This document shows positions 34,755 through 40,098 of a stretch of 64,000 bases of DNA, piece after piece. The translations under genes and the position numbers were made by a program. The notes under the pieces were generated by a model, which saw only the letters and a program-made list of their open reading frames with translations, did not search any database and was not told the DNA's origin. Origin of the DNA: Senegalia massiliensis (GTDB lineage Bacteria; Bacillota; Clostridia; Tissierellales; SIT17); the NCBI RefSeq assembly GCF_009911265.1, contig NZ_QXXA01000006.1, forward strand, positions 124,001 to 188,000, in the 5' to 3' direction. Each line of letters opens with the position of its first letter. The stretch's first letter is position 1.

Positions 34755-34876
34755 TTTGAAGAGTTAACAGAAAAAATAAAAGAATATATTAGATTTTATA
34801 ATGAAAGAAGGTTACAAAAAAACTAGGATGTATGGCTGCTTTAGAATATCGAAACCACACATCCCTTTGTGCATAA
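34755..34876 (+). pseudogene. Tail of IS3-family orfB transposase
   Basis: FEELTEKIKEYIRFYNERR, then after a frameshift in a poly-A run, LGCMAALEYRNHTSLCA and stop. This is the typical C-terminus of IS3/IS150 integrases (IKEYIxYYNxERxQ...LSPxEYR). Only about 40 codons remain. Confidence 0.7.
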
Positions 34877-35921: not shown

Positions 35922-36267
35922 AAGAAAGTGAACTAATACAAAATAAAGCAGTTGTACTTGGAGCAAATTATTACATAGGTCTTAGTATTATACGCTCACT
36001 AGGAATGGAGGGTATAAATGTAACTGCTATTGACTATTCTAAGAAAGATACTATGATTTTTATTCTAAATAAAAAATTAATAGCTCCTCATTATAAGGAA
36101 AAACCAATACTATTTCGTAGTGCTGATCCTTATGTAGAGTTTATAGAGCAGAAAAGCATAATATAGCTGTACCTGAAGCATATGCAATATGGGATATAAA
36201 AGATCCAAAACCAGTAATATCATTTATGGATTTAAAATTAAAACATGTTAAAAATAAGTTTTTATAA
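35922..36267 (+). pseudogene. Internally deleted ATP-grasp ligase gene
   Basis: The N-terminal part reads NKAVVLGANYYIGLSIIRSL and GINVTAIDYSKKD, followed by a frame slip (the DFYSK expected there is in another frame), then KKLIAPHYKEKPILFRSADP. After a jump the C-terminal part reads NIAVPEAYAIWDIKDPKPVI and SFMDLKLKHVKNKFL with a stop at 36265. The central ATP-grasp catalytic core is missing. It stands directly before the Mur-ligase-like gene and resembles carboxylate-amine/D-aspartate ligase-like proteins. Confidence 0.7.
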
Positions 36268-36286
36268 TATAGGAGATGAATAACAA

Positions 36287-37849
36287 ATGATTAAATTAAA
36301 TGAACTTCTTAAATCAATAAACATAATTAATTCTTGGAATGAAAAAAATATGGATATAACAGGAATATCATATCATTCAAAAAAAGTTGAAAAGGGCAAT
36401 ATTTTTGTATGCATAAAAGGATATAAAACTGATGGTCATAAATATATAATGAATGCAATTAATAATGGAGCAAGTGCATTAATTGTAGAAGAATACCAAG
36501 ATGGATGGAATATTCCACAATATAAAGTAGCAAATAGTAGAAAAGCACTCGCACATTTAAGTAGTTATTTTTATAATAACCCTTCACGAACTATGAAAAT
36601 AATAGGAATAACAGCTACAAATGGGAAAACAACAACTTCATTTATGATAGATAAAATACTTGGTGATAATGGATATAATACAGGACTTATTGGAACAGTT
36701 ATGAGTAAGTTTGGAGATGTAACAATACCTTCAATTTTAACAACTCCTGAATCATTAGATTTGCAAAATTATTTTTATCAAATGAAAAACAAGAAAGTTT
36801 CACATGTAACAATGGAAGTTTCATCATCTTCTTTGGAATTAAGTAGAGTTGAAAACGTAGACTTTGATATTGTTGCCTTTAATAATATAAGTAGAGAACA
36901 TATTGATTTACATGGATCCTTTGAAGATTATTTTAATGTAAAATCAAGTCTTATTACAAATGCTAAAAAATCTGCTTGGTCTGTGCTTAATATTGATTCA
37001 CCTATGCTTAAAGATTTAATAGATAAAACTAAAGCAAATATTTTAACATATGGTGTTGAAAATAAAGATGGTGATTTATCATGTGAAGAACTAGATCTAT
37101 CTACAGGTAGAGCAAGTTTTTATGTATCTATAAATAATACTTTAAATCTAGGAAATATAAAATATGATAAAAGAAGATTTAAAATAAATTTATCAGTACC
37201 AGGATTCCACTCAGTATACAATTCAATGAGTGCTATTGCTATTGCTCTCTTATCTGGAGTTCCAATAAAAAATATTCAAAAAAGTTTAGAAAGCTTTGTT
37301 GGTGTTGAGAGACGTTTTCAATTTGTATTTGAAGATAACTTTAAAATTATAGATGACCATTTTGCAAATGTTGGAAATATAAATGTTACACTTGGCACTC
37401 TTCATAAAATGGTTTATAAAGATTTACATTTAGTATATGGAATAAGAGGAAATCGTGGACCAATAGTTAATAAAGAAAATGCTGAAACAATAGCAAACTG
37501 GGCAGACAAATTAGGCTTTAAGAAAATAATAGCAACAACAAGTGACTCTCATGTAACAGAAAAAGATAAAGTCACTAAAGAAGAATTAGATGTATTTATG
37601 GATATCATGAATAAGAATAATATAGAAGTAGAGTTATATAATGAATTACCTGATGCAATTAATAGTGGGCTTTCTCGTGCAAAAGATAGTGATGTAGTAT
37701 TACTTGCAGGATGTCAAGGTATGGATTATGGTGCTCATATTGCACTTGAAATTATGCATGACTTAAGACCTGATATAAATAAAGCTTTATTATATGCACC
37801 TCTAAAAGATAGAGTGGCTGGTTCATCAGAGTTAGATATTATGGAATAA
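36287..37849 (+). CDS. Mur-ligase-family protein (MurE-like)
   Basis: At 520 residues it has the three-domain Mur ligase layout: N-terminal SHKK/SRKALAHLSSYFYNNPS region (like MurE), central ATP site IGITATNGKTTTSFMID, EVSSSSLELSRVE, HIDLHGSFEDYF, and a C-terminal domain with GVERRFQF. The MurE motif DYAHxPDG is replaced by DDHFANVGN and DNPR by DSHV, so the amino acid used is unlikely to be diaminopimelate. ATG 36287 follows AGGAGATGAAT. Its flanking ATP-grasp and racemase genes are broken, but this frame is intact. It may ligate an unusual acidic or D-amino acid; the substrate is unknown. Confidence 0.85.
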   Translation: MIKLNELLKSINIINSWNEKNMDITGISYHSKKVEKGNIFVCIKGYKTDGHKYIMNAINNGASALIVEEYQDGWNIPQYKVANSRKALAHLSSYFYNNPSRTMKIIGITATNGKTTTSFMIDKILGDNGYNTGLIGTVMSKFGDVTIPSILTTPESLDLQNYFYQMKNKKVSHVTMEVSSSSLELSRVENVDFDIVAFNNISREHIDLHGSFEDYFNVKSSLITNAKKSAWSVLNIDSPMLKDLIDKTKANILTYGVENKDGDLSCEELDLSTGRASFYVSINNTLNLGNIKYDKRRFKINLSVPGFHSVYNSMSAIAIALLSGVPIKNIQKSLESFVGVERRFQFVFEDNFKIIDDHFANVGNINVTLGTLHKMVYKDLHLVYGIRGNRGPIVNKENAETIANWADKLGFKKIIATTSDSHVTEKDKVTKEELDVFMDIMNKNNIEVELYNELPDAINSGLSRAKDSDVVLLAGCQGMDYGAHIALEIMHDLRPDINKALLYAPLKDRVAGSSELDIME

Positions 37850-38038
37850 ATAGAGAAAAACTTTGAAAAAGCCGGTGTGGATATAGTATGTATACCTTGC
37901 ATTACTACCTATTATTTTATAGAAAAAATTCAAAGCAATTTAAAAATTTCAATCTTAAATTGCCTAAAACAAACTAATAGATATATCCAGCTACTAGATC
38001 CTATGCAAATATTAGCAGATTATATAACAAAAAGCTAA
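37850..38038 (+). pseudogene. Fragment of aspartate/glutamate racemase-family gene
   Basis: Directly after the Mur-ligase stop, the same strand reads IEKNFEKAGVDIVCIPCITT, YYFIEKIQSNLKISILNCL and ends in LADYITKS. AGVDIVCIPCxTxxYF resembles the second half-site of Asp/Glu racemases (AGADxIVIPCNTAH). Only about 62 codons exist, without a start and without the rest of the protein. Confidence 0.6.
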
Positions 38039-38060
38039 TTCACTTTGGAATTAGCTTTTT
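38029..38060. terminator. Bidirectional terminator between racemase remnant and PBP gene
   Basis: AAAAAGCTAATTC pairs with GAATTAGCTTTTT around a six-base loop. The stop codon of the racemase fragment lies in the left arm, and the PBP gene ends 11 bases to the right on the other strand. Confidence 0.85.
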
Positions 38061-38070
38061 GTTATTATTT

Positions 38071-40098
38071 TTATTTTAAATAATACTCCATTATATTTTT
38101 AACTCTTGGAACAACATGATGACTACCACCTTTATCTTCTACACCTTCTATTATCATAGAAACTACTAGTTCAGGATTATCAATGTCCATAGCTACAAAC
38201 CATCCATCTTCTTTTCCAGTTTCATTTTGTGATGACTTTAATTCTGCTGTTCCTGTTTTACCTGCCAATTTTATGCCGTCAAGTTTAGCTTCATTTCCTG
38301 TACCATTTTTATCTTCAATTATATTAATTAAACTTTGTTTTAATATGTCTATATTTTTATCAGTTATAACATCTTTCTTCCATATTTCTGATTTAACACC
38401 TTCACCTTGTTCTAATATAGGCTTCATTATATCTCCTTCATTTACAACTGAACTATATATTAATGAAAGATGTAATGGACTTACAAGTACTTCTCCTTGA
38501 CCATAACCTGTATTAGCTAATAGTATTTCATTTCCCATCTTATTTTCATTAGCAATCTGAGATTTTTCTATAGGATAATTCACTGGAATATCTTCATTAA
38601 ATCCAAATTTTTTCGATTCTTCTATAAAGTTTTTTTCTCCAATTTCAAGTGCAGCCATAGCAAAATATATATTATCCGAATATACAAATGCATCATTTAA
38701 ATTAACATTAGAAATTTTATCACTCACTCTAGTTACTTTATAATCTCCCCAAGAGTTATCTTTTTGCCACTGCTTTCCATTTATACTCAATTTTTCACTA
38801 GGATTTATTGAATTTTTATCTAAAGCAATATCTGCCGTTACAAGTTTAAATGTAGAACCTGGAGAATATGCATCATTAAATCTATTTTGAAATTCATTTA
38901 CTTCTGTATCTTCCCATTCCTTAGATTGAGTGTTTGATATATAAGTTGTAAATAAATTTGAATCAAATGAAGGAGAACTTACCATTGATAAAACTTCACC
39001 AGTTATTGGATGTATGGCAACAGATGCCCCTACATTTCCATCCATTTCATTATATATTTTCTTTTGTAAATCCATATCTATAGATAACTTTAAATCTTTG
39101 CCATCTTCAGGCCTAGTTTTTGCTAAAACTACCTTATCTATTTCCTTTCCATCATTTATCTTAGATATATATATTTCTTTACCATCTTTAGAACGAAGAC
39201 TTTCTTCATAAACTGACTCTAGTCCTAGTTTACCAACTATACTTGTACTGTTATATATACCTTCTTTATCCTTTTCTAATTCTTCAGCTGTTATAGAGCC
39301 AGTATAGCCAATTAAGGATCCAAAAGCTTCTCCTCCAGGATATATTCTTTCTTTAACTTCTTGATGTTTTACACCTTTGATATCAAGAAGTTGCGAAAGT
39401 TTTGTATCATCTACTGACAATTTTACTATAGGAATAAAATATTCTGGATTAGTATTTTTGTCTAATTTATCTTCTATTAATTCTTTGTCTATGTCGAGAA
39501 TGTTTGACATATTAGATATATTAGATTCTTTATTTTCTTCAAATAATTTAGGATATATACCTATGTTATATCTTGTCCCATTTACAGCAAGCCCATTTCC
39601 AGATTTGTCGTATATTTCTCCTCTTTCTGAATATAATGTTTCAATTCTAACTTTATCCTCTTTATTCATATCTGGGAAAATTAAATTTTCATCCCATTTC
39701 ACATGCCAATTATTTTCTCCATCTATATCCTCTTCTACCATTCTAATATTAAAATCTTCTAGTTTTATTTCACCTGCTATTGAATCCATCTTCAACGTAA
39801 ATTTCAATGTATCATCTTTATCTTGTTCGTCATTTAATTCTATATGTATATCCTTAGCTCCAATACCATCATATATATTAGTATATCTTGTTATAAAGTC
39901 TTCTTTTGATATATATTTTTTTGAATCAGTTGATAAAATGTCATACATTTTTTCATAATCTTTAGATGCCCAGCTATCTTTATACGCATTAAATGCATCT
40001 TCTTTAGTCTGACTACTACATCCAGTAAATATTAATACAGTCATTAAAAATACGACTATAATTAAAATACTTATTTTATGTTTATTCAATTTATACAC
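38071..40098 (-). CDS. Penicillin-binding transpeptidase, MecA/PBP3-like lipoprotein
   Basis: The 675-residue protein has a lipoprotein signal (IFTGC, Cys27), an NTF2-like MecA_N domain (about 30-145), a PBP dimerisation domain (about 150-310), and a transpeptidase domain with S415-TFK, SDN 474-476 and KTGTAE 614-619. This is the class B layout of low-affinity PBPs such as MecA, PBP5 and clostridial homologues. It would cross-link peptidoglycan outside the membrane and may contribute to beta-lactam tolerance. It is a single gene, downstream of the ltaS-like gene on the same strand. Confidence 0.92.
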   Translation of the reverse strand: MYKLNKHKISILIIVVFLMTVLIFTGCSSQTKEDAFNAYKDSWASKDYEKMYDILSTDSKKYISKEDFITRYTNIYDGIGAKDIHIELNDEQDKDDTLKFTLKMDSIAGEIKLEDFNIRMVEEDIDGENNWHVKWDENLIFPDMNKEDKVRIETLYSERGEIYDKSGNGLAVNGTRYNIGIYPKLFEENKESNISNMSNILDIDKELIEDKLDKNTNPEYFIPIVKLSVDDTKLSQLLDIKGVKHQEVKERIYPGGEAFGSLIGYTGSITAEELEKDKEGIYNSTSIVGKLGLESVYEESLRSKDGKEIYISKINDGKEIDKVVLAKTRPEDGKDLKLSIDMDLQKKIYNEMDGNVGASVAIHPITGEVLSMVSSPSFDSNLFTTYISNTQSKEWEDTEVNEFQNRFNDAYSPGSTFKLVTADIALDKNSINPSEKLSINGKQWQKDNSWGDYKVTRVSDKISNVNLNDAFVYSDNIYFAMAALEIGEKNFIEESKKFGFNEDIPVNYPIEKSQIANENKMGNEILLANTGYGQGEVLVSPLHLSLIYSSVVNEGDIMKPILEQGEGVKSEIWKKDVITDKNIDILKQSLINIIEDKNGTGNEAKLDGIKLAGKTGTAELKSSQNETGKEDGWFVAMDIDNPELVVSMIIEGVEDKGGSHHVVPRVKNIMEYYLK

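Follow-up and report, generated by a model that had tools for sequence, protein, structure and literature searches.

MurE sets which diamino acid enters peptidoglycan. In Senegalia massiliensis an open MurE-like gene lies between the broken remains of an ATP-grasp ligase gene and of an Asp/Glu racemase gene, which raises the question of what this trio is for and whether its surviving member is still in use. We addressed this question with the 64,000 nucleotides around the locus (contig NZ_QXXA01000006.1, positions 124,001 to 188,000; hereafter the window) and with 249 genomes of the order. The comparison suggests that the locus is a locally decaying cluster of an alternative MurE and the enzymes that probably build its cross-bridge.

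Anatomy and decay of the locus

The most informative relative is a second genome of the same genus (G001), whose central protein is 95% identical. At the same spot it carries an intact ATP-grasp gene (392 aa), MurE-like gene (520 aa) and racemase gene (230 aa), with a ZIP transporter gene on one side and a penicillin-binding-protein gene on the other. Both flanking ends are common to the window, and since the trio is whole in G001 the remnants in the window (Table 1) are not chance similarities.

Table 1. Features of the cluster in window coordinates
Feature	Position	Strand	Description and basis
ATP-grasp carboxylate-amine ligase remnant	35936..36267	+	alignment and blastn against the intact 392-aa G001 gene (L009:303-1481)
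MurE-like Mur ligase, clade C	36287..37849	+	520 aa, open; pMurE-type C-terminal domain
Asp/Glu-family amino-acid racemase remnant	37858..38038	+	blastn against the intact 230-aa G001 gene (L009:3081-3773)
Inverted repeat, cluster end	38024..38065	none	self-complementary blastn match, L009:3759-3800 against window 38065-38024; terminator-like, presumed function

Aligned to the G001 gene, the ATP-grasp remnant falls into four pieces, with two short stretches of the interior between the 5' part and the 3' end. It lacks a start codon and most of its catalytic core: blastn against G001 places deletions of about 52, 96 and 680 bp in the window lineage, the largest of which removed most of the core, as the first-pass annotation of this DNA had read from the window alone. 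The racemase remnant consists of two joined pieces (37858-37986 and 37992-38038). After deletions of about 225 and 308 bp (blastn against G001) some 176 of 693 bp remain, the earlier figure of about 62 codons was correct, and the score to TIGR00035 is 18.7 bits, far under the cut-off of 93.1. All five larger deletions lie in the flanking genes, and the central gene has none of such size. Piecewise loss with abrupt junctions marks the flanking genes as real remnants. The genome of the window (G000) also encodes a full-length ATP-grasp paralogue (C7:189057-190202, 55% identical) and, given this survivor, the ATP-grasp loss is local. For the racemase, a search at E 1e-12 returned the remnant as the only match in this genome and no second member of the trio's family.

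The cluster is directly adjoined by a gene for a penicillin-binding protein with MecA_N, dimerisation and transpeptidase domains (window 38071-40098, minus strand), and by eye the end of the same gene adjoins the cluster in G001 and G002 too. On the other side, just upstream of the ZIP gene, a frameshifted remnant (window about 34758-34874, plus strand) looks to us like the C-terminal end of an IS3-type transposase.

The central gene contains neither a stop codon nor a frameshift. Compared with G001 its dS is 0.230 and its dN 0.027; the resulting dN/dS of 0.117 shows purifying selection, and the value for the adjoining penicillin-binding-protein tail is higher (0.142). Together with the deletions in the flanks, this test, which the first-pass annotation had proposed, bears out its view of two decayed outer genes around a preserved centre. 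Polarised amino-acid changes number eight on the window branch versus two on the G001 branch, with seven versus nine synonymous changes, a hint of relaxation on the window branch. The genome also carries SpoIVA, DapF, DapB and a canonical MurE (585.3 bits to NF001126) in an apparent dcw cluster, as judged by eye; that the central gene might be the sole MurE of this genome, a case considered earlier, does not hold.

The central gene could be a leftover in this genome, left open by the recency of the decay, with the pathway dead and the wall of plain DAP type. Such a history would fit the deletion of both neighbours in a genome where no second racemase of this family was found, the presence of canonical MurE, DapF and DapB, and the excess of amino-acid changes on the window branch. 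It fits poorly, however, with a dN/dS below that of the penicillin-binding-protein tail in a gene free of stops and frameshifts, with the restriction of all five larger deletions to the flanks and with the retention of the ATP-grasp paralogue. We therefore consider a mere leftover unlikely, and favor a central gene that remains in use.

Family, motifs and C-terminal domain of the central protein

The window protein has a P-loop and all three Mur-ligase domains (Pfam), in agreement with the first-pass statement that the frame is open and the ATP motif kept. It passes the general MurE model TIGR01085 (296.1 bits, cut-off 257.3) and stays below the equivalog cut-offs for DAP-adding MurE (NF001126, 347.1 versus 373), Lys-adding MurE (NF010628, 204.7 versus 536) and, over the whole protein, archaeal pMurE (NF053648, 167.7 versus 600). 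The motif readings made earlier stand in the alignment, with DDHFANVGN in the DYAHxPDG region and TSDSHV in the DNPR region. Every aligned sequence of the clade to which the protein belongs (clade C) has DDHFAN or DDHYAN, and the changes in these regions are therefore a trait of the clade and not of the window copy. Clade C has no DNPR or DNPA motif, and it shows AIRG[SN]RG (GIRGNRG in the window copy) where MurE has GCGGDRD. A scan of the contigs with a general P-loop pattern, in which 449 of 593 stretches were related and the best 80 were kept, was dominated by canonical MurE; among these best 80 of 449 only the first four were at least 50% identical and of C type, and 37 of the 80 were aligned. 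Four stretches from Halobacillus, Planococcus, Oceanobacillus and Terrihalobacillus (L081, L082, L123, L124) hold another MurE variant, with GFRGDRD and with DDLN replacing DNPR.

In bacterial Mur ligases the C-terminal domain is described as binding the incoming amino acid (PMC11915815). This domain of the central protein scores 112.5 bits to archaeal pMurE versus 28.7 to MurE, while the same domain of the canonical MurE in the same genome scores 38.5 and 233.8 bits, respectively. A search of the PDB with the C-terminal domain likewise recovered pMurE first (83 and 60 bits), followed by MurC (27), MurD (25) and Thermotoga MurE (20). A third MurE-like gene of the genome, of a group that we call clade B (L166:12452-13885; G000:C1:215460), adjoins a polysaccharide deacetylase gene. 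The clade B C-terminal domain is of pMurE type too (135.5 bits). An AlphaFold2 model of the complete central protein (pLDDT 87.6, pTM 0.88) is closest to the Lys-adding MurE of S. aureus (4c12; Z 38.7, rmsd 2.7, 473 residues aligned), followed by M. tuberculosis MurE (2wtz, Z 37.4), 1e8c (Z 34.8) and pMurE (Z 31.1).

Domain trees were built from 45-46 chosen sequences. The C-terminal-domain tree (46 rows) unites clade C, clade B, pMurE and two related Bacillota rows in a single group (support 97/94), inside which pMurE, clade B and the two Bacillota rows stand together (98/83). Joining pMurE with canonical MurE was rejected for this domain (AU p 0.0019), and joining it with a single long MurC row was not (AU p 0.24). 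The central-domain tree gave no link between clade C and pMurE, the latter being a long branch beside MurC, and we dropped a whole-protein kinship of the two for this reason; one clade of C, B and the two related rows was unsupported there (AU p 0.064). Lupo et al. favor an affinity of pMurE, their Mur-delta, to MurC, but some trees that they report place it among the Bacillota sequences of MurE (PMC11915815). At least for the C-terminal domain, clades C and B could be the missing relatives of Mur-delta. One may tentatively go further and propose that the amino-acid domain of clades C and B is that of pMurE, that it defines a third MurE specificity class for a non-DAP wall and that canonical MurE serves spores only; we regard this extended proposal as possible but rather doubtful.

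Clade C, its partners and DAP supply across genomes

Clade C occurs in 89 of the 249 genomes. In 59 of the 89 it is the only MurE-type match at E 1e-35, a threshold that a diverged Lys-type MurE can miss (several genera of family f4 give none). For six of these 59 genomes the search was carried to 0.001, and no further MurE-type protein appeared among the matches listed (to about 1e-14). The set with C alone includes Peptoniphilus mikwangii, P. catoniae and Anaerosphaera multitolerans, whose C genes reach 247-254 bits to TIGR01085, just under the cut-off of 257.3, with the next match below 80. In many relatives the gene is thus the only MurE-type match, and the picture of a decaying remnant, suggested by the window, does not extend to clade C in general.

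The partner genes were examined in the 36 best-scoring of the 89 C loci, the window's own included, over about 1.5 kb on each side (L045 ends at a contig edge). A full-length ATP-grasp gene of the same family lies directly beside C in 25 of the 36, of which eight also have the racemase and hence the full intact trio; the 11 loci without it include that of the window. Acetoanaerobium noterae has ATP-grasp, MurE and racemase intact in a row, and this species belongs to the Peptostreptococcales, Peptoniphilus to the Tissierellales. The trio is therefore a real conserved set, as had been supposed from the decayed copy, and its intact members do co-occur. The replicon of A. noterae concerned (NZ_CP154629.1, L209; 2.63 Mb) is labelled a plasmid, yet it has housekeeping-like genes and may be a chromosome. 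Over whole genomes the ATP-grasp family of the trio (family 1; E at most 3.5e-50, a limit that admits two members of only about 30% identity, G063 and G064) was found in 60 of the 89 genomes with C versus seven of the 160 others. The racemase search gave a match in 46 of 52 genomes, a sample that includes 45 of the 89 with C.

A direct exchange is seen in genus g69. In one genome (G158, L171) a single operon encodes racemase, ATP-grasp, AsnB-like amidotransferase and a MurE of C type; in another (G160, L170) the last gene of this operon is instead a canonical MurE, which passes the DAP-ligase cut-off (549.3 versus 373). This in-place exchange indicates that both proteins do the same kind of job. 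Calls made by eye from first residues are the dcw neighbours in L164, the racemase in L186 and AsnB in L168 and L171. We also considered reading the substrate from the motif alone and dropped this: the MurE of G160 has DNPR, yet G160 does not figure among the genomes listed with DapB, DapF or Ddh. As the MurE that replaces C in this genome keeps DNPR, the motif is an unsafe guide.

Among the 59 genomes with C alone, DapB was found in 15, DapF in two and Ddh in 15, so that 16 carry at least one of the three and 43 carry none, in a count that uses these three enzymes. A PLP-dependent DAP epimerase, DapF2, is also described (PMC9026213); the step upstream of it is covered by DapB. Restricting the set to genomes at least 90% complete left 38 of 53 without DapB, DapF and Ddh. 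From the 43 genomes we conclude that clade C probably adds a diamino acid other than DAP. It might be argued that C simply adds meso-DAP, as an ordinary MurE whose sequence drifted in a redundant second copy, given that it passes TIGR01085 and that a sister species has a DAP-ligase-scoring MurE in the same operon slot. However, the score to NF001126 is below the cut-off, the C-terminal domain is replaced by one of pMurE type and C is the only MurE-type match in the 43 genomes that lack DapB, DapF and Ddh, all of which makes a drifted DAP ligase very unlikely.

The presence of a further MurE-type gene in a genome with C goes together with SpoIVA. It was found in all 27 C genomes with SpoIVA versus three of 62 without (G121, G226 and G227); conversely, SpoIVA is present in 27 of the 30 C genomes with a further MurE-type gene and in none of the 59 with C alone. 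DapF is distributed similarly (26 of 30 versus two of 59). Fisher's test gives p 8e-20 for the link between SpoIVA and the further MurE, a value that overstates independence because few lineages are involved (family f4, the Peptoniphilaceae, as a block and parts of f5). The further MurE matches are mostly 33-37% identical, and not all were typed by motif as canonical; the three matches of G223 include a C gene split over two contigs, and the third match of G002 is partial. Exceptions also include twelve genomes in which C and a further MurE occur together with DapF but without a DapB match (G210, G215, G216, G025, G038, G222, G056, G223, G226, G227, G245 and G248). The simplest reading of the distribution would be that canonical MurE is kept for a DAP-containing cortex and C for growth, and that canonical MurE is lost when sporulation is lost.

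The partner enzymes are best judged from the intact genes of G001. The racemase passes the aspartate racemase model TIGR00035 (192.6 versus 93.1) and also that of cysteate racemase (NF052483, 211.7 versus 190). Its closest PDB match is 1jfl (195 bits), of the aspartate-racemase family, which we take to be the Pyrococcus aspartate racemase. The ATP-grasp protein passes the Pfam cut-offs of Dala_Dala_lig_C and CPSase_L_D2 and reaches no NCBIfam cut-off (best 62.9 bits versus 218). Family 1 is 23% identical (E 3e-21) to a carboxylate-amine ligase of Latilactobacillus curvatus that adjoins an amino-acid racemase and is presumably AslA. In lactic acid bacteria the ATP-grasp ligase AslA adds D-Asp to L-Lys; the D-Asp is amidated by AsnH, in L. 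lactis racD lies in the operon of aslA, and in L. plantarum asnB1 co-localises with murE (PMC4155827). In Virgibacillus indicus the gene that comes after C encodes a lactobacillus-type ATP-grasp protein (32% identical to that of L. curvatus), and a family-1 gene lies elsewhere beside an apparent racemase, called by eye. With a lactobacillus-like ATP-grasp adjoining C in Virgibacillus, the family-1 enzyme may have a different substrate.

The first-pass annotation had also considered a cyanophycin-like product, and a trio making a soluble peptide or storage polymer instead of wall precursors would share the ATP-grasp and Mur-ligase make-up of cyanophycin synthetase, but this is highly improbable with a weak TIGR02068 match of 89.4 bits, far under the cut-off of 850, with the two activities on unfused genes, with many genomes in which C is the only MurE-type match for an obligatory wall, and with AsnB and racemase partners that match the wall modules of lactic acid bacteria.

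Proposed role and comparison with known systems

We propose that the cluster is an alternative peptidoglycan-precursor module, and we give this reading, including the substrates and the division between vegetative wall and spore, a probability of roughly 0.68. The MurE of clade C would extend UDP-MurNAc-L-Ala-D-Glu with a diamino acid that is not meso-diaminopimelate, L-ornithine and L-lysine being the most likely candidates. D-Asp (or D-Glu) would come from the racemase, and the ATP-grasp ligase would join it to the side-chain amine as cross-bridge residue, giving a wall of A4 type; in some relatives the AsnB-like amidotransferase of the same operon may amidate this residue. Making and attaching a D-configured acidic amino acid, one of the options put forward from the window alone, is thus also part of our best reading, with a MurE of unusual type as the third member. 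Relatives that do not form spores would rely on C alone. In spore-formers, including the genome of the window, canonical MurE would feed the DAP spore cortex and C the vegetative wall. In the window lineage the racemase and the adjacent ATP-grasp gene have been deleted piecemeal, with MurE and the distant ATP-grasp paralogue kept.

The Peptoniphilus wall is of the Orn-D-Glu type. Our search of the literature on the walls of Peptoniphilus, Tissierella, Acetoanaerobium and Virgibacillus found no measured wall of a species that carries C. An L-Lys-D-Glu wall is reported for Anaerococcus prevotii (PMC3035230) and meso-DAP for Gottschalkia (PMC5737214), reports that are not tied to genomes in our set. 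As the only MurE-type match in many genomes of the Peptoniphilus family, and one joined by a further MurE in spore-formers of that order, clade C offers a direct test of how one cell holds two wall chemistries. Archaeal pMurE, the origin of which published trees leave open, also gains bacterial relatives in this clade. Genes of clade C would probably be annotated as DAP ligases, and genome-based predictions of wall type may be wrong for this reason.

Compared with canonical MurE (Lys-adding in S. aureus, DAP-adding in E. coli and M. tuberculosis), the central protein has the same three-domain fold and P-loop and MurE-like N-terminal and central domains, but its C-terminal amino-acid domain is not of MurE type and DNPR or DNPA is missing. 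With archaeal pMurE (Mur-delta; 6vr8, 7tzi) clade C shares the type of C-terminal domain and the motifs AIRGSRG and GxQGMD; the central domain of pMurE, on the contrary, is far off and unplaced, and the whole-protein score of the window protein stays below the pMurE cut-off. The set of parts resembles the AslA/RacD(/AsnH) module, with an ATP-grasp carboxylate-amine ligase, a racemase and, in some relatives, an AsnB-like amidotransferase, although the ATP-grasp protein is only distantly similar here and is linked to a MurE of its own. A precedent for the division of labor that we propose is Lysinibacillus (Bacillus) sphaericus, which has a Lys wall, a DAP cortex and two MurE proteins, both of canonical types. 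It is likewise a spore-former with one MurE for each wall, whereas in the system described here one of the two would carry a pMurE-type domain.
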